From Methanospirillum stamsii (GTDB taxonomy: Archaea > Halobacteriota > Methanomicrobia > Methanomicrobiales > Methanospirillaceae), in the NCBI RefSeq assembly GCF_003173335.1, contig NZ_QGMZ01000018.1, positions 62,001 to 126,000 of the forward strand: a stretch of 64,000 bases of DNA. Reading direction: 5' to 3'. Under the pieces are notes generated by a model. That model was given only the letters and a program-made list of their open reading frames with translations, was not told the DNA's origin and made no database searches. Shown one piece after another: positions 12,885 through 19,896 of this stretch (the first letter of the stretch is position 1; each line of letters starts with the position of its first letter). A program made the translations under genes and the position numbers.

Positions 12885-13793
12885 TTATGGATTGCTATTC
12901 CGGGTATTTTTCAGGGAGTCAAGGTCAGGTTTGTTAAGTCCGGTTGCTTTCATGATAAACTCATCATCCATACCAAGTGAGATGAGATTTCTCGCAAATG
13001 TTATTCTTTCTTCTTCTCTTCCTTCTTCAATACCCTCTTTTCTACCCTCCTCAATTCCTTCTACCCTCCCTTCTTCTTTTGCGGCATAAACCCTTGTAGC
13101 CTGGTCAGAGAGGAAAATTTCCCTTGCTTCGTATAGTCTTTTGTTCTCCTCATTCCTGCTCATTGCCTTGAGTGTTTCAAATGCCTTTTTTATCGGCGGT
13201 TTAGTTTCTGCTGCCATATATAACTCCTCCTCGTTTCTTGCGTTTATAAATTTCAGCCAGTTTATCAGGTCTTTATTTTCATATGAGTGCGCATACCTAT
13301 GAACTTTTGGGAGTTCAAGAAAATGGATCTCGAGGGCATCGCTGAGCCTGATATCATACTTTGAATCATGAACGTGAAAACAGGTATGCAGATCATCGAC
13401 CGGGAGCAGGTAGTAATCCAGGAGGTTAATGGTAATGGTCTTATTTAGTTCATGATATTTCTGTCCGGGCAGGAACTGATCGATATACATGATCGCCCAG
13501 TAGTAAAGTGTCCTTTTATCCATTGCCGGAAGGTTGTGTAGTTGCATCTCCACATTTATCTGAACTTTAGCATCCGTTCGTGCCCGAATGTCCAGAATGC
13601 CTTCACGCTGTGTTGCTGAACAGAGGAGATGGGTGTCCAGGAGATGAAGATCCTGGATGTTTTCCGGAATAATGGTGTTTAGGAGATCAATCAGGACATC
13701 TTTACACTGGGGATCGCTGAAGAGCAACCGGAAAGCAAAGTCATTTTTTGGTGACATTATCTCGTCACCGTCACGAGTGAGAATGTATGGCAT
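12885..13793 (-). CDS. Rpn/PD-(D/E)XK nuclease family transposase-like protein, copy A
   Basis: A 302-residue protein of the Rpn (recombination-promoting nuclease) / PDDEXK_2 family. The conserved N-terminal SPKNDFAFRLLFSD and the nuclease motif D68...E82-M-Q84 (GILDIRARTDAKVQINVEMQ) are intact. The C-terminal ~60 residues form a charged helix with a repeated EGIEEGRKEGIEEGR stretch. The start MPYIL is supported by GGGAGG upstream. It is nearly identical to copy B immediately upstream, differing at scattered sites and in the length of the EEGR-type repeat, so the pair is a recent tandem duplication. Rpn proteins cut DNA and stimulate RecA-independent recombination in E. coli; they are linked to phage defence. 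Confidence 0.9.
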   Translation of the reverse strand: MPYILTRDGDEIMSPKNDFAFRLLFSDPQCKDVLIDLLNTIIPENIQDLHLLDTHLLCSATQREGILDIRARTDAKVQINVEMQLHNLPAMDKRTLYYWAIMYIDQFLPGQKYHELNKTITINLLDYYLLPVDDLHTCFHVHDSKYDIRLSDALEIHFLELPKVHRYAHSYENKDLINWLKFINARNEEELYMAAETKPPIKKAFETLKAMSRNEENKRLYEAREIFLSDQATRVYAAKEEGRVEGIEEGRKEGIEEGREEERITFARNLISLGMDDEFIMKATGLNKPDLDSLKNTRNSNP

Positions 13794-13897
13794 ACCGAGA
13801 ACCTCCCATGAGTTATTGAATAATTCTATTCATCCGTTTCGATTTCTCGGATCTTTTCATTATTCATGGAATGACGAGAGGTAATACTCCAAGGTTG

Positions 13898-13912
13898 AAA
13901 AAAGAAAAAAAA
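13898..13912 (-). terminator. Oligo-T terminator after Rpn copy B
   Basis: Sixteen bases downstream of the copy B stop, the minus strand has runs of eight and six T separated by one C. Oligo-T tracts are the usual archaeal intrinsic terminators. Confidence 0.5.
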
Positions 13913-13927
13913 TGAATGCTGTTAGGA

Positions 13928-14848
13928 TTATGGATTGTTATTCCGGTTATTTTTCAGGGAGTCAAGAGCAAGTTTGTTAAGTCCGGTTGCTTTCATGATA
14001 AACTCATCATCCATGCAAAGTGAGATGAGATTTCTCGCGACGGTTATTCTCTCTTCTTCTTTCCCCTTTTCAATCCCTTCTTCAATACCCCCTTTCCTAC
14101 CCTCCTCAATGCCTTCTACTCTTCCTTCTTCTTTTGCTTCAAAAACCCTTGTTGCCTGGTCAGAGAGGAAGATTTCTCTTGCTTCGTATTGTCTTTTGTT
14201 CTCCTCATTCCTGCTCATTGCCTTGAGTGTTTCAAATGCCTTTTTTATCGGCGGTTTCGTTTCTGCTGCCATATATAACTCCTCCTCGTTTCTTGCGTTA
14301 AGAAATTTCAGCCAGTATATCAGGTCTTTATTTTCATATGAGTGCCCATACCTATGAACTTTTGGGAGTTCAAGAAAATGAATCTCGAGGGCATCGCTAA
14401 GCCTGATATCATGCTTTGCATCATGGACATGAAAACAAGTATGAAGATCTTCGACCGGGAGCAGGTAGTAATCCAGAAGATTAATGGTAATGGTCTTATT
14501 TAGTTCATGATATTTCTGTCCGGGCAGGAACTGATCGATATACATGATCGCCCAGTAGTATAGTGTCCTTTTATCCATTGCCGGAAGGTTGTGCAGTTGC
14601 ATCTCCACATTAATCTGAACTTTTGCATCCGTTCGTGCCCGAATGTCCAGAATGCCTTCACGCTGTGTTGCTGAACAGAGGAGATGGGTGTCCAGGAGAT
14701 GAAGATCCTGGATGTTTTCCGGAATAATGGTGTTTAGGAGATCAATCAGGACATCTTTACACTGGGGATCGCTGAAGAGCAACCGAAAAGCAAAGTCATT
14801 TTTGGGTGACATAATCTCGTCACCGTCACGAGTGAGAATGTATGGCAT
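13928..14848 (-). CDS. Rpn/PD-(D/E)XK nuclease family transposase-like protein, copy B
   Basis: A 306-residue near-identical paralog of copy A; the two starts are 1055 bp apart. The active-site pattern D68, E82, Q84 is the same. Differences cluster in the C-terminal tail, where the charged repeat reads RKGGIEEGIEKGKEEE and is four residues longer, consistent with slippage in a short repeat, and in a few substitutions (for example VDDLHTC to VEDLHTC). GGGAGG precedes the ATG. Both copies appear intact and could be expressed from their duplicated upstream regions. Function as for copy A. Confidence 0.9.
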   Translation of the reverse strand: MPYILTRDGDEIMSPKNDFAFRLLFSDPQCKDVLIDLLNTIIPENIQDLHLLDTHLLCSATQREGILDIRARTDAKVQINVEMQLHNLPAMDKRTLYYWAIMYIDQFLPGQKYHELNKTITINLLDYYLLPVEDLHTCFHVHDAKHDIRLSDALEIHFLELPKVHRYGHSYENKDLIYWLKFLNARNEEELYMAAETKPPIKKAFETLKAMSRNEENKRQYEAREIFLSDQATRVFEAKEEGRVEGIEEGRKGGIEEGIEKGKEEERITVARNLISLCMDDEFIMKATGLNKLALDSLKNNRNNNP

Positions 14849-14868
14849 ATCGAGAACCTCCCATGAGT

Positions 14869-14903
14869 TATTGAATAATTCTATTCATCCGTTTCGATTT
14901 TTC
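14869..14903. repeat. 35 bp direct repeat, upstream region of Rpn copy B
   Basis: This stretch (beginning tattgaataattctattc) recurs exactly at 15116-15150, and its first ~32 bases recur at 13814-13845 upstream of copy A. It is the shared 5' region of each duplicated unit. Confidence 0.85.
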
Positions 14904-14918
14904 CGGGATATTTCCCGT

Positions 14919-15113
14919 ACCTATGAACTTTAGGGAGTTCAAGAAATGGATCTCAAGGGCATCACTGAGTCCGATATCATGCTTTGAATCATGGATATAA
15001 ACAGGTATGCAGATCATCGACCGGAAGCAGGTGGTAATCCAGAAGATTAATGGTAATGGTCTTGATTTGAGTTCATGATATTTCTGTCCGGGCAGGAACT
15101 GATCGATATACAT
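14919..15113 (-). pseudogene. Relic of a third Rpn copy (internal fragment)
   Basis: Minus-strand DNA here matches the middle of the Rpn genes: the MYIDQFLPGQKYHEL segment, the DYYLLP region and HEIHFLELPKVHRYG-like coding. Both the nuclease motif region and the C-terminus are missing, and small indels break the frame (the tail of MYIDQF...HEL is followed by shifted sequence). It is flanked on both sides by the 35 bp repeat, so it looks like a third tandem unit that lost its ends by recombination. Confidence 0.8.
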
Positions 15114-15115
15114 GA

Positions 15116-15150
15116 TATTGAATAATTCTATTCATCCGTTTCGATTTTTC
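15116..15150. repeat. 35 bp direct repeat, second copy
   Basis: Identical to 14869-14903. It bounds the third Rpn relic on its upstream side and marks the outer end of the tandem array. Confidence 0.85.
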
Positions 15151-15236
15151 AGGAATAGAATTTGTAGATGTACTTACACCCGGTCAAAAAATTTAGGCAA
15201 CAAATCCTACTCCTTTATCATGACCGGAAAAAAGGC

Positions 15237-16058
15237 TTAGGTGAGCCTAAGTCCGGACTGGTAATCAAAGGCCTTTGAGAAACTGATTATTCCGCCACTT
15301 ACTGAGGCTTTGTCTTTCATATGGTTCGTTGCCGATGTCTTATTCCAGTTCCCTTCATTACCTCGTGCCTCCATGATATCGGCGGAGAACTCAGTATTCA
15401 CTGTACCAACCGCTACCCCAAGTCCGGACACCGGGTTTGGTGTCAGATCAATATGGTATGACATGGCTGAGGGAACTGAGCCGTCTTCTGCAACGATCCT
15501 GGCTTTTGCCGATGTTGAGACCTGTGCACTATTGACATTCACCAGTGAACTATGTGCCCGGACTGTGTTACAGAACGCTGGCGCTGCAGCATCATCTGCA
15601 GATGAGAAAACACACCGCATAATGTTATCAGATTCGGTATAGTTGCCTCCGGTGCTCATCACCAATAATTCATCAGCAACAAGATGACTGCCTTCCTTGC
15701 TCTCATAACTGTAAACCTTCTCAGATTCGAAATTATGCGCTCCTCGTGCTTTATTTTGTGAGTCATAATCTACCGAACTACTCAGTGAGAGATGCCCCCC
15801 GTTGGTCATGAGAGAGTCACGGTATAGTAATGAAGCAACCTTTTCTTCAGGCCCGAATATTTTATTTTCAAGTTTACCTGACGCTATTGACCAGTCAAAT
15901 GTCGTTTCCGTTCTTACAAACCCGATAACATCAATCAGGGTTGTGATGGCAATACGCTGGTTCTCCGGAGTCGCGTTTGGAAGATAATCGGCGACTACAG
16001 CCCCCGGCGTTAATAATAATGCCAGAATTGCGATACACAGTAATCGAATACAATACAT
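15237..16058 (-). CDS. Secreted sheath-protein paralog (shorter form)
   Basis: A 273-residue exported protein homologous along its length to the 358-residue protein encoded at 18742-19818. Shared blocks include PENQ..TLIDV near the mature N-terminus, LSLS..DYDS, a pair of cysteines in RCVF and AFCN, LVN.NSAQ.ST, and a C-terminal KDKASVSGGI..F.K.F.Y.SG. It lacks the ~77-residue insertion found in the longer protein. ATG 16058 is preferred because it starts the signal peptide MYCIRLLCIAILALLLTPGA; a TTG at 16076 is the alternative. Three N-X-S/T sequons (NAT, NYT, NKT) make it a plausible AglB substrate. Probably a minor or conditional envelope component. Confidence 0.8.
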   Translation of the reverse strand: MYCIRLLCIAILALLLTPGAVVADYLPNATPENQRIAITTLIDVIGFVRTETTFDWSIASGKLENKIFGPEEKVASLLYRDSLMTNGGHLSLSSSVDYDSQNKARGAHNFESEKVYSYESKEGSHLVADELLVMSTGGNYTESDNIMRCVFSSADDAAAPAFCNTVRAHSSLVNVNSAQVSTSAKARIVAEDGSVPSAMSYHIDLTPNPVSGLGVAVGTVNTEFSADIMEARGNEGNWNKTSATNHMKDKASVSGGIISFSKAFDYQSGLRLT

Positions 16059-16140
16059 ACCCCACCAACATTGCAAATCGTATAGTTAGTGGTGGAGGTT
16101 AAGTATTTTTCAGGGGTTAAAAAAAATGTGGCGTGGTTAC

Positions 16141-18573
16141 TTATTTATAGTATCTCTCAATTTGTGATTCATCCACATCTATAGTTTCATTTGTTTCAAT
16201 GATGCGATATGGTCCGGTTGCATGAACATCATAGGGTGTGTTGGTCGTTGAATAGGGGAGAGTAAATGAATTGTTTACACTCTGCTGCCGGTAGACAAAT
16301 TCACGGCCCTGGTTGGTTACAAGGGGGAGTTCAATCGTTCCGGTTCCGGGGATGGTGTGACCTTTAACATGTTCGAAGATCTTTATGTTATGAATTTCTG
16401 CATATGTAAGATTTGAAACGATTTGAGGTGATTCATATACTAATCGGTAGGATGTTAGTGCTGGGATATCCACACAGGATCGGGTATAGTTAAAGGAAAC
16501 TTCATCTTTCTGAAGGTATTGTGGGGAGATTTTATTATTTTTTAGTTCCTCTTCATTCACAAGCATCGAGACATTTTCATTACCCATTGGGATATTAACA
16601 TAGGATATTATATTTTTTTCAGTTGCTTCCTGGAATGAGCCATCGAAATAATGCATTCTTGTAAACATTGACAAAAAGAAATCATTTTTTAGTCCTTTTA
16701 GCAGAGAAGTTTTAGCATTTTTTTTCAAGATAGTGTCAAGCATATAATTATCATAGGGATAATTTAGATGTGACCATAAAACAACTGTTGGATATACTAA
16801 ACTCAGATCATAGTTAGTTATGACATACTGGGCATTATATGGAGCAATTATCTCATTTGCAGATGATTCATTAGTTGTTAACAAAAATGAAGCAGAAATT
16901 CGAGCATCATTTTCTTGAAGAGGACTTCCTAATGGAATCCGATTTCCTATGGTCAAAATATAATGTCCAAAATTCCACCAGTTAACAATTGTGTAGGTAT
17001 TAGATGGATACGAAAACGATTCCCTATCGTATATTTTGTAATAGTCGATTCCATTATCGGGAGTGTTATTTTTTAACCAGAGGGATGTATCCATCCAGTT
17101 ACTTTTTATTGATTTTCCATAAAATGTTGGAAGGACATAAAACCCGATAGAGAGAGAAATGAGATAAAATGTGCATGATATCAGGATTACAATAAGTAAT
17201 CCTATCATCTTGGGGTCTAGATTTCTTTTTTCTAAAAAATCTTTCCTATTCTCTGAAATTATTATGGTTTTACGATATACCATGTCAAGGCATATTGCTG
17301 ATAAAATGCATATTACTGGTCCTTCGTAGTATTGATATCGTACCTGCATGATAGATATTATTGAAAGGATTACTCCCCATATAAAAAAAAACAACAAAAG
17401 CCTGTTTTTATGGAGGAATAATGTATAGCAAACAACGATAAAACCAATAAAAGAAAGCACAATTGCAATGTTATAACTTAATATCGCTCGAAGTAATGAT
17501 AATGGCTCCAGTTCATCAATTCCTGCTGTATTTCCGGAAATTTGGAAAAAACTATAAAATGAGTTAGAAAATGAGAATAGAATATCAATTATCAGGTGGG
17601 GTACTATAATATTGCAAAAAACTATGAGAAAAAGTAGACTAAAAAGAAGATATAGGCATCTCTTGTCCTTACAGATAATATACCCTTTTAAAGCATATAG
17701 AAAAACAGATGCAATAATGATTATAATTGCAACTCCAATAGCTCCATAAGTATAACTACGAATGGAAAAACCATCATATGGTACGCCGGATAAGAGATAA
17801 AGAACTGAAAATGTAGTAAATATGAGAATGTTAGAAATTAATAACTTTACAATTTTATTCATATCTTTTTCGAATATTATAAAAAAGAAATAAAAAACAG
17901 AAATTGTCAAAGCTACTATCATTATTGTTGGAATATTCATATATCCTAGAAAAAAAAGTATACCCGTTATAATACTAGTAAAAACACAATTTTTGGAAAG
18001 AACTTTTCGAGTATCACAAGTAATGTTTCGAATAATGAAGAGGTAACCTAATATGCATGCAAAAGAAATGACGACTTCCAATATGTGATGATCCAGATTC
18101 CCATACATCGAACGATATAAGAACTCTCCATTTACAATGGTTACAAAAATAGCAGATAAAATACCTACTTTTTTATTCCAAATCATCTTTCCGATTAAGT
18201 AACAAATTGGAACCATTAATAAGAATAAAACTGGCGGGAGCCATGAAACAAGCCTGATAATTTCCCCCTGGGTTGTAATGTTATTAAATATGCATAATGT
18301 CGCTCCCATAAATGGTAACAATGGCCCCCATTGAATCATCTGACCATTTGGGAAATTTAACATGGGATCAAACCATGCATATGAAGGATAATTGTGAATG
18401 ACCTGTTCAATCTGCCGGATGGTATACCAGGGATCTTCGTGCATCACTATAGGAATTATTCCTGATGAGAAATCAAGCAGAGTTTGTAAACGAAAAATCA
18501 GACCAATTAATGAAGAAATGAAGATACAAAATAAGAGCAATATTACCTTATTCGTTCTTTTTAAGGAATACAT
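16141..18573 (-). CDS. aglB: Archaeal oligosaccharyltransferase AglB (STT3 family)
   Basis: An 810-residue membrane enzyme that transfers a lipid-linked glycan to Asn in N-X-S/T sequons outside the membrane. About 12-13 hydrophobic helices fill residues 1-480, followed by a soluble C-terminal domain. Catalytic signatures: the acidic motif HEDPWYT in the first external loop (E46-D47), GNLDHHILEV near 160 (second acidic motif), and WWNFGH at 532-537, a variant of the canonical WWDYG. The gene is visibly more AT-rich than its neighbours, with many A and T runs. It lies between two related secreted-protein genes on the same strand, separated by 64 and 168 bp. Confidence 0.9.
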   Translation of the reverse strand: MYSLKRTNKVILLLFCIFISSLIGLIFRLQTLLDFSSGIIPIVMHEDPWYTIRQIEQVIHNYPSYAWFDPMLNFPNGQMIQWGPLLPFMGATLCIFNNITTQGEIIRLVSWLPPVLFLLMVPICYLIGKMIWNKKVGILSAIFVTIVNGEFLYRSMYGNLDHHILEVVISFACILGYLFIIRNITCDTRKVLSKNCVFTSIITGILFFLGYMNIPTIMIVALTISVFYFFFIIFEKDMNKIVKLLISNILIFTTFSVLYLLSGVPYDGFSIRSYTYGAIGVAIIIIIASVFLYALKGYIICKDKRCLYLLFSLLFLIVFCNIIVPHLIIDILFSFSNSFYSFFQISGNTAGIDELEPLSLLRAILSYNIAIVLSFIGFIVVCYTLFLHKNRLLLFFFIWGVILSIISIMQVRYQYYEGPVICILSAICLDMVYRKTIIISENRKDFLEKRNLDPKMIGLLIVILISCTFYLISLSIGFYVLPTFYGKSIKSNWMDTSLWLKNNTPDNGIDYYKIYDRESFSYPSNTYTIVNWWNFGHYILTIGNRIPLGSPLQENDARISASFLLTTNESSANEIIAPYNAQYVITNYDLSLVYPTVVLWSHLNYPYDNYMLDTILKKNAKTSLLKGLKNDFFLSMFTRMHYFDGSFQEATEKNIISYVNIPMGNENVSMLVNEEELKNNKISPQYLQKDEVSFNYTRSCVDIPALTSYRLVYESPQIVSNLTYAEIHNIKIFEHVKGHTIPGTGTIELPLVTNQGREFVYRQQSVNNSFTLPYSTTNTPYDVHATGPYRIIETNETIDVDESQIERYYK

Positions 18574-18679
18574 ACATACAATTTATGACTAAAGATAAAT
18601 AACAGTGTTTCTTTAATCAAAACGGTTTTTGATATGTTGAGTGAAAATGATTTAAAAAATCATGAATCTCTTAAAAACT

Positions 18680-18722
18680 AAAAAAAAACATAAAATATAC
18701 TGAAAAGTAATGCAAAAAAAAA
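18680..18722 (-). terminator. Double oligo-T terminator after the sheath-type gene
   Basis: Downstream of the stop at 18742, the minus strand carries two runs of nine T (18714-18722 and 18680-18688). Such tandem oligo-T tracts are typical archaeal terminators and fit a heavily transcribed single-gene unit. Confidence 0.65.
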
Positions 18723-18741
18723 GATTAAATCAGGGATTTAT

Positions 18742-19818
18742 TTAGAACTTAAATCCTGATTCGTAGTTAAAGGTCTTCTGGAAGTTCTTGATACCGCCAC
18801 TGACGGATGCAGTGTCCTTCCAGTTGTTGGTTGCAGACTGAACAAGGTTGTTTGCACGTGCTTCCATGATAGATCCGCCAAAGAGGGTCTTCACGGTACC
18901 GTCTGCAAATCCACTGCCAGAGTTGCTGTCAGGGGTGACTGCTATCTGATAGTTGAGCATTGCTGGAACGTCGCTGGTTGCTGCAACACTGCGGGCTGCT
19001 CCCTTGGTGGAGATCTGAGCGCTGTTGATGTTCACAAGTTCGCTCTTTGCCTTGACGACATTACAGAATGCTGGGAAGTACTCGCTCTTTGCGGTTGCAA
19101 AGACACAGCGGATGGTGTCAGCGGTCTTCTCGTAGCTACCTGCAACATCAAGAGTCCACTCTTCTGAACCGACAAGGTGGTTACCTTCGGTGCTTGCATA
19201 GGTCAGAACCTTTTCAACTTCGAGGTTGGAGAGGCCCTTGCCCTTGTCAGTTGAGTCGAAGTCAATGTTCTTGCTGAGTGAGAGCTTGCCACCGTTGCTG
19301 CGGAGAGAATCGGTCCAGGTCAGGATCATGATCTCTTCGGTTGGCTTAAGCATAGAGTTGTGGATAGCTCCTTCGGTTTTTGAAAGTGTCTTGTAATATC
19401 CAGTTGTGAACAGTGCATAGAGGTCTGACCATTTCATAGTTGCACTGACATTAGGATCAACGAGTTTGCTTGCCCAATCTGATGGGAATTCAAGTTTGTC
19501 AATACCGCCGGCTGCATTCCAAGCAAGCTCGATGAGACCTGCAGATTTTGCAGTGTTAAGTGCAGTTGCAAAGTCTGCAACATCTGCTGGTAAAGTTGCA
19601 TCAGACTCACCATCTACCTTGTATGATTCATAATCACCATCTGCAAGAGTCCACTGCATTTCACTTTCTTCGCTGACTTGTCCAGTGACATCGATAAGAG
19701 TGTCAATGGTAAAAATCTGGTTTTCTGGGACTTGTCCTGGGAGGCGGTCTGCAGCTGCAAATCCGCTAACCGCAACAAGTGCAACCAGTGCTAAAACAAT
19801 TGCGTATCCGAACTTCAC
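18742..19818 (-). CDS. mspA: Probable major sheath protein (MspA/SH type)
   Basis: A 358-residue secreted protein; signal peptide MKFGYAIVLALVALVAVSG, cleavage probably after FAAA. The mature chain is Ser/Thr/Asp-rich with alternating beta patterns, two cysteines (RCVF, AFCN), one sequon (NVS) inside a ~77-residue insertion absent from its paralog, and the C-terminus YESGFKF. Size suits the ~40 kDa amyloid-like sheath subunit of Methanospirillum, and I recall the JF-1 sheath gene lying about this far from RuBisCO; not checked. The start is GTG, with GGAGG upstream. Its own TATA box, leader hairpin and double terminator suggest strong expression. If not the sheath subunit, it is certainly a major-type surface protein. 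Confidence 0.75.
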   Translation of the reverse strand: MKFGYAIVLALVALVAVSGFAAADRLPGQVPENQIFTIDTLIDVTGQVSEESEMQWTLADGDYESYKVDGESDATLPADVADFATALNTAKSAGLIELAWNAAGGIDKLEFPSDWASKLVDPNVSATMKWSDLYALFTTGYYKTLSKTEGAIHNSMLKPTEEIMILTWTDSLRSNGGKLSLSKNIDFDSTDKGKGLSNLEVEKVLTYASTEGNHLVGSEEWTLDVAGSYEKTADTIRCVFATAKSEYFPAFCNVVKAKSELVNINSAQISTKGAARSVAATSDVPAMLNYQIAVTPDSNSGSGFADGTVKTLFGGSIMEARANNLVQSATNNWKDTASVSGGIKNFQKTFNYESGFKF

Positions 19819-19839
19819 GTAAATTTCCTCCTACATTTC

Positions 19840-19896
19840 ATGCTGATACTCTCAGCATCAACAAAACAAGGTTGTGAGTATCCTGATAAATAGTTT
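19840..19896 (-). promoter_or_regulatory. Promoter and 5' leader hairpin of the sheath-type gene
   Basis: Reading the minus strand, a TATA-like CTATTTATC lies at 19893-19885, about 70 bases before the GTG start, predicting transcription from about 19864. The short leader contains a perfect 7 bp stem ATGCTGA/TCAGCAT (19840-19858, 5-base loop), then GGAGG and the start. A stable stem just upstream of the ribosome site could protect the mRNA or tune initiation; that is inference. Confidence 0.55.

Follow-up and report, generated by a model that had tools for sequence, protein, structure and literature searches.

An AglB paralogue between two sheath-type genes of Methanospirillum: catalytic residues kept, acceptor pocket changed

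Why should an oligosaccharyltransferase (OST) gene, aglB, lie between two genes for sheath-type (SH) surface proteins, and what might its product do there? The question is raised by three genes, SH-long, aglB and SH-short, in the window, that is, the whole 64,000-nucleotide stretch of Methanospirillum stamsii DNA analysed here (Table 1). A preliminary description of this DNA had suggested that the enzyme is a dedicated OST of its sheath neighbours, acting at their N-X-S/T sequons. The sheath identity and the gene order on which this proposal was built have stood, but ordinary sequon glycosylation of the neighbours is not supported in the form proposed.

Table 1. Coordinates of the sheath locus and of the sites discussed in the text (positions in the window).
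Feature	Positions	Strand	Remarks
SH-long	18742..19818	-	358 aa, GTG start; MspA/SH orthologue, major sheath subunit
Sheath-locus AglB	16141..18573	-	810 aa; oligosaccharyltransferase paralogue
SH-short	15237..16058	-	273 aa from ATG at 16058; SH paralogue without cap insertion
SH-long 5'-leader element	19825..19864	-	hairpin GATGCTGAGAGTATCAGCAT (19840-19859) and ribosome-binding segment TGTAGGAGGA
AglB catalytic Asp, first DXD motif (D47)	18433..18435	-	5/5 trio AglBs
AglB second DXD motif, D161-H162-H163	18085..18093	-	5/5 trio AglBs
AglB TIXE glutamate E354 (AfAglB E360)	17512..17514	-	5/5 trio AglBs; aligned to 5GMY
AglB degenerate WWDYG motif, WWNFG (532-536)	16966..16980	-	aligned across five species
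AglB DK-motif Lys position (AfAglB K618), Val593	16795..16797	-	V, I, I, D, D across five species
SH-long single N-X-S/T sequon N123, in cap	19450..19452	-	absent from other four trio species
SH-short sequon N-A-T at mature N-terminus (N34 of 279)	15975..15977	-	5/5 trio species
SH-short sequon N-Y-T (N145 of 279)	15642..15644	-	5/5 trio species
SH-short sequon N-K-T (N245 of 279)	15342..15344	-	5/5 trio species

The sheath locus and its distribution

The three open reading frames were confirmed at the positions given earlier, all on the minus strand, and SH-long and SH-short are indeed paralogous (about 47% identity). If read from a TTG, the SH-short frame extends to 16076 (15237-16076, the 279-residue numbering of Table 1); the ATG at 16058 is the more likely start since the orthologues start there. 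The middle gene encodes AglB: the Pfam families STT3, AglB_core-like and AglB_L1, covering STT3, core and peripheral domains, score 64.8, 87.7 and 47.4 bits, all above their cut-offs of 24.5, 27 and 23.6, and the predicted model (mean pLDDT 85) has the OST fold, as seen by comparison with Archaeoglobus fulgidus AglB (3WAJ; Z-score 39.9, r.m.s.d. 2.8, 675 aligned residues).

The sheath identity of the 358-residue protein holds: it is 66% identical by BLASTP to the 377-residue MspA of M. hungatei JF-1, is homologous to WP_011449234.1 and is encoded, with the same flanking genes, at the orthologous locus. SH-long is the orthologue of the proven M. hungatei sheath protein MspA/SH (WP_011449234.1, Mhun_2271), which was identified in purified JF-1 sheaths (PMC6242892). 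The 377-residue protein of genome G003 carries D43, T86, S144, N157, C257 and K363 in the residue numbering of the published JF-1 MspA/SH (PMC10593813), and we take G003 to be JF-1 and its SH-long to be Mhun_2271. SH-long shares with JF-1 MspA/SH the locus, two conserved cysteines and a layout of conserved core plus hypervariable outward cap (about residues 58-151), but the cap sequence is mostly different and contains one sequon where JF-1 has none. Judged by inspection, SH proteins begin with a hydrophobic signal sequence, and the two cysteines are conserved in long and short forms, where they align with C257 and C271 of JF-1. Between species the SH-long cap is 16-36% identical, compared with 85-93% for the C-terminal core and 68-90% for SH-short. 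The predicted structure of SH-short consists mostly of strands (mean pLDDT 73.5, with weak loops). Comparison of the SH-long sequence with solved structures gave a chance match only, Foldseek returned no reliable match of the SH-short model among viral structures, and a scan of viral contigs with SH-long and AglB, sensitive to close relatives only, found no relatives; the SH-like proteins of viruses reported in the literature may lie beyond its reach. In the genome containing the window, AglB is encoded by five genes and the SH loci number about nine, and the present locus is best explained as the principal sheath-gene locus of Methanospirillum.

SH-long, aglB and SH-short follow one another on one strand in five Methanospirillum species (G000, which contains the window, G010, G001, JF-1 and G009). 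The arrangement is conserved within one Methanospirillum clade and is no accident of a single genome. RecJ-like plus PUA, NAC and methyltransferase genes adjoin the SH-long side in every member of the genus in which the stretch is assembled, and a TruB-like gene is found on the other side in several species. In G008, G004 and G002 the same neighbourhood lacks aglB and contains two or three SH genes, and aglB is absent from the sheath locus of the lacunae-type clade. In G011 only a 181-base spacer separates SH-long from SH-short, and in G006 SH-short is preceded by other genes; this absence of aglB refers to the locus, and a copy elsewhere is possible, the assemblies of G006 and G011 being incomplete (84% and 75%, respectively). 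A tree of the three flanking proteins places both genomes inside the trio clade, beside JF-1 and G009 (100/99), and the simplest history suggested by this nesting is therefore that aglB was gained at the locus once and lost once. On this view, the ancestor of the clade that bears the trio would have acquired one AglB paralogue, placed between its SH-long and SH-short genes. Mhun_2271 has been reported as not lying in an operon (PMC6242892), and surveys report that the context of SH genes is not conserved (PMC11576556); both statements are silent on aglB. An aglB conserved between two SH genes, also in the model organism, offers a first candidate partner for sheath assembly.

Active site and divergence of the sheath-locus AglB

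In an alignment to peptide-bound A. fulgidus AglB (5GMY), D47, D161, H162, H163, E354 and R412 are found in all five trio AglBs; these are the residues which hold metal, amide and phosphate (PMC8342417). The window protein shares with A. fulgidus AglB-Long (3WAJ, 5GMY, 7E9S) the fold over 675-729 residues, both DXD motifs, the TIXE glutamate and the equivalents of Arg426 and Gln571, but differs from it in having Asn in place of the WWDYG Asp552 and Val in place of the DK Lys618, and in that its gene sits inside a sheath locus. The WWDYG position reads WWGFG in G010, WWTSG in JF-1 and SWEYG in G009, so that, with the window's WWNFG, the Asp is replaced by N, G, T or E in four of the five trio proteins, and G001 alone keeps WWDYG intact. 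A comparison set of 80 other AglBs, drawn from Methanospirillum and related genera, has this Asp in 79 cases and Glu in one. The second signature residue of the DK or MI motif is Lys or Ile; the DK lysine is present in 65 and absent in 15 of the same 80 proteins, in a region that aligns loosely, and its absence from the trio AglBs is weak evidence for a changed pocket. Changes at conserved columns concentrate around the motif (15 of 22 columns in residues 500-600 versus 17 of 73 elsewhere; Fisher p = 0.0002, for an interval picked after the motif was seen), and the trio set keeps 63 of 95 conserved columns, compared with 89 of 95 in a five-species sister AglB set. WWDXG variants among the aglB copies of multi-copy archaea have been noted earlier (PMC5131992) and resemble the present case in that the motif varies among paralogues; the available part of that source mentions neither a sheath locus, nor loss of the Asp, nor kept catalytic residues.

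The five trio proteins cluster as a single clade (100/100) in a tree built from 50 AglBs, where they adjoin other Methanospirillum AglBs. These nearest paralogues (e.g. L088 and L093) have the same domain architecture but, unlike the trio AglBs, keep WWDYG and evolve more slowly. The identity of 36-38% to the JF-1 protein had raised the suspicion that different AglB lineages were swapped into the locus, which was rejected since the five form one clade; an exchange of divergent AglB alleles within the trio clade is possible. Read from the same tree, the trio AglBs of JF-1 and G009 are separated by some 0.98 changes per column, compared with roughly 0.10 and 0.03 in two further AglB pairs from these two species (protein identities of 56% versus 91% and 97%), and across the five species the trio AglBs are 38-69% identical. 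Their reading frames are open, with per-segment dN of 0.2-0.6 and, wherever it is defined, dS of 1.4-2.8; a dN/dS ratio well below 1, together with the open frames and the kept catalytic residues, argues against decay. The low dS of SH-long was not used alone as a yardstick, because codon bias in a highly expressed gene could reduce it. The GC content of the trio aglB (33-41%) is lower than that of the SH genes beside it (44-49%) and also than that of most other AglB genes.

Divergence is distributed over the locus as a mosaic. Between JF-1 and G009, AglB residues 1-710 are 41-61% identical (fourfold-site identity 0.33-0.46) and the last 130 residues 90% identical (0.69), the nucleotide identity inside the gene rising abruptly from 0.59 to 0.83. 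The SH-long cap (36%; fourfold-site identity 0.47 on few sites) stands against a core of 94-98% (0.75-0.84), and SH-short is 89% identical (0.69); taken together, SH core, SH-short and AglB C-terminus are 89-94% identical. As the contrast at synonymous sites occurs within a single gene, it suggests that divergent alleles may have been exchanged between conserved flanks, beyond mere selection on the proteins; it concerns one species pair, the others being too diverged, and misalignment in the most divergent parts, above all the cap, could exaggerate it. AglB lineage L094/L115, which likewise varies fast, shows a similar contrast.

Sequons and the possible task of the enzyme

The sequon counts given earlier, three in SH-short (N34, N145, N245) and one in SH-long, were reproduced, and N123 of SH-long does lie in the cap, within the insertion missing from SH-short. 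This sequon is peculiar to the window species (1, 0, 0, 0 and 0 in the five trio species), so that one is observed where shuffled mature sequences of the five species predict 22.6, a pooled figure which overstates the independence of related sequences (P for single proteins is 0.003-0.09). No more than one sequon occurs in any of eight additional long SH paralogues. SH-short has 3, 3, 4, 5 and 5 sequons in the five species, which is about as expected, with three positions common to all; in the model these three fall within, or border on, segments of low confidence (17-31, 139-161 and 233-241), outside the confident strands. Asn157 of JF-1 SH has been listed as a possible glycosylation site (PMC10593813), and it is followed by F-N and forms no sequon. 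With 3-5 sequons in one form and 0-1 in the other, SH-short and SH-long might possibly be alternative sheath building blocks differing in glycan density.

We tentatively favour, as possible rather than probable, the reading that the sheath-locus AglB is an active OST whose recognition of acceptors has been altered. It is preferred over simple sequon glycosylation since SH-long avoids sequons and the sequon-reading site is the most changed part of the enzyme. From the kept metal and catalytic centre we infer that AglB can probably still use the lipid-linked glycan, while the pocket for the Ser/Thr at acceptor position +2 would have been remodelled differently in most species. The enzyme would then glycosylate envelope proteins, most likely the adjacent sheath subunits, under altered or relaxed rules, and acceptor reading and exposed SH cap would diversify together. 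It is tempting to go further and to suppose that active sheath-locus AglBs glycosylate sheath asparagines outside N-X-S/T, each species having an acceptor rule matched to its own SH cap, but we would place little confidence in so specific a version. If the favoured reading is true, an OST clade that kept catalysis and repeatedly lost the Asp which reads position +2 provides a test of how strict the sequon is in N-glycosylation.

Besides the PglB changes described below, further observations speak against an altered-acceptor OST. Two species of the clade live without aglB at the locus, the SH-long transcript may end at a T-rich spacer which follows that gene, and aglB and SH-short do not carry the SH leader.

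The changes around WWDYG also allow the protein to be seen as a pseudo-OST which glycosylates no protein, and instead binds or hydrolyses lipid-linked oligosaccharide or serves the sheath subunits as a chaperone on the translocon side. In Campylobacter jejuni PglB, W457S, D459V or the double change D459N-S492C abolish glycosylation (PMC3527161); the first is the change found in G009 and the last resembles WWNFG of the window, and several trio AglBs may therefore be inactive as OSTs. A. fulgidus AglB, moreover, has a separate hydrolysis activity on lipid-linked glycans (PMC8342417), and the kept catalytic residues also fit a pseudo-OST. However, at least one member, G001, retains the ordinary motif, and a purely structural role would not require six catalytic positions to be kept in five species. 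We consider the pseudo-OST unlikely, though still to be reckoned with.

A rapidly exchanged aglB might, alternatively, be a bystander that history placed here, serving other proteins or nearing loss, in an order that reflects general synteny. The flanking genes are conserved across the genus, also where aglB is absent, and the absence of aglB from the locus in G011 and G006, its low GC content relative to its neighbours and the fast variation of lineage L094/L115 too all fit this explanation. Yet place and strand have been retained in five species over protein identities of 38-69%, and the catalytic residues have been selectively retained, so that a mere bystander appears distinctly unlikely.

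Least convincing is the model of the preliminary description itself, an ordinary sequon-dependent OST acting on SH-short (and on SH-long where it has a sequon) to give differing glycan densities: the three SH-short sequons shared by all five species, and the loss of just the N-terminal one (LPNAT to LPGAV) in both G006 and G011, which have no aglB at the locus, speak for it, but this co-loss is a single event, the major subunit is almost devoid of sequons, the degraded part of AglB is the very pocket that reads Ser/Thr, and in lacunae-type SH genes the first and last shared positions (N28 and N248) persist with no aglB at the locus, so that we hold it to be very unlikely.

A leader hairpin of the sheath genes

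Directly upstream of SH-long, GATGCTGAGAGTATCAGCAT forms a nearly invariant hairpin of 7 bp with a 5-base loop; TGTAGGAGGA comes next, and then the start codon. Among 61 relatives, 17 contain a match (at most two mismatches over 26 bases); with at most one mismatch over 20 bases, 16 of the 393 genomes searched in the phylum do, and neither search gave a match outside family f1. Among 44 distinct contexts, 38 precede a reading frame matching the SH profile (60-440 bits), three end with the fetched stretch, and three one-mismatch copies (L216, L225 and L232) have neither the ribosome-binding segment nor an SH gene, L216 belonging to G014, a genome in which no SH was found. The leader is absent before the trio aglB and the trio SH-short, a search of Rfam gave nothing near a gathering score, and a sigma-70 promoter scan, which addresses the wrong promoter type for archaea, did not rise above shuffled sequences.

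With an RNA model, weaker copies are retrieved upstream of additional SH genes in G008, G004, G002, G005, G018, G019, G028 and G032, along with a handful of marginal hits (21-23 bits), these not preceding SH genes. Variation in the stem is mostly G-U wobble; a diverged copy shows one GC-to-AU exchange on both sides of the stem, in an alignment fitted to the model. The other two-sided change in that alignment derives from a match with E 0.037 that is probably due to chance. The leader looks like a sheath-gene-specific element which marks the principal sheath gene, and our guess is that it acts on the stability or translation of the mRNA. It could thus serve as a marker for the principal sheath gene of each genome and as a handle on the regulation of sheath genes.

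The leader of SH-long

The sequence of the 5′-leader hairpin and ribosome-binding segment preceding SH-long, the longer sheath-protein gene, is nearly invariant, and this element likewise precedes SH genes throughout family f1 (38 confirmed contexts), while a scan of 393 genomes of the phylum yielded it in none outside this family. The SH-long leader also holds an 8-codon reading frame (ATG AAA TGT AGG AGG AAA TTT ACG TGA), which is free of differences among the five trio species and whose stop overlaps the GTG start of SH-long.

Features considered
Feature	Sequence	Positions	Strand
Leader hairpin and ribosome-binding segment, upstream of SH-long	window	19825-19864	minus
8-codon frame, within SH-long leader	window	19815-19841	minus
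Two tandem PDDEXK_2-family transposase genes and third, truncated copy	window	12885-15157	
Further AglB pair (genomes G003, G009)	L094; L115	4411-6837; 4714-7116	
SH-short (genomes G011, G006), loci without aglB	L080; L122	1843-2679; 3500-4336	

AglB beyond the sheath locus

Rapid divergence also marks the further AglB pair, whose members in G003 and G009 share 67% identity at a dS of about 1.0 and are more alike at the C-terminus than in the remainder; mosaic AglB evolution thus extends beyond the sheath locus. WWDYG variants occur in other AglBs, namely LWDYG, LWDSG and WWEQG (stretches L056, L058 and L153) in genomes G019, G023 and G035, which carry SH genes as well, and IWDAG (L172) in a genome without them.

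SH-short and its surroundings

In G011 and G006, where the locus is devoid of aglB, SH-short has lost its N-terminal sequon (LPNAT to LPGAV) and still possesses the other two shared sequons. In the window, the transposase array, comprising near-identical genes of 302 and 306 residues and the truncated copy (14914-15157), stops just past SH-short.
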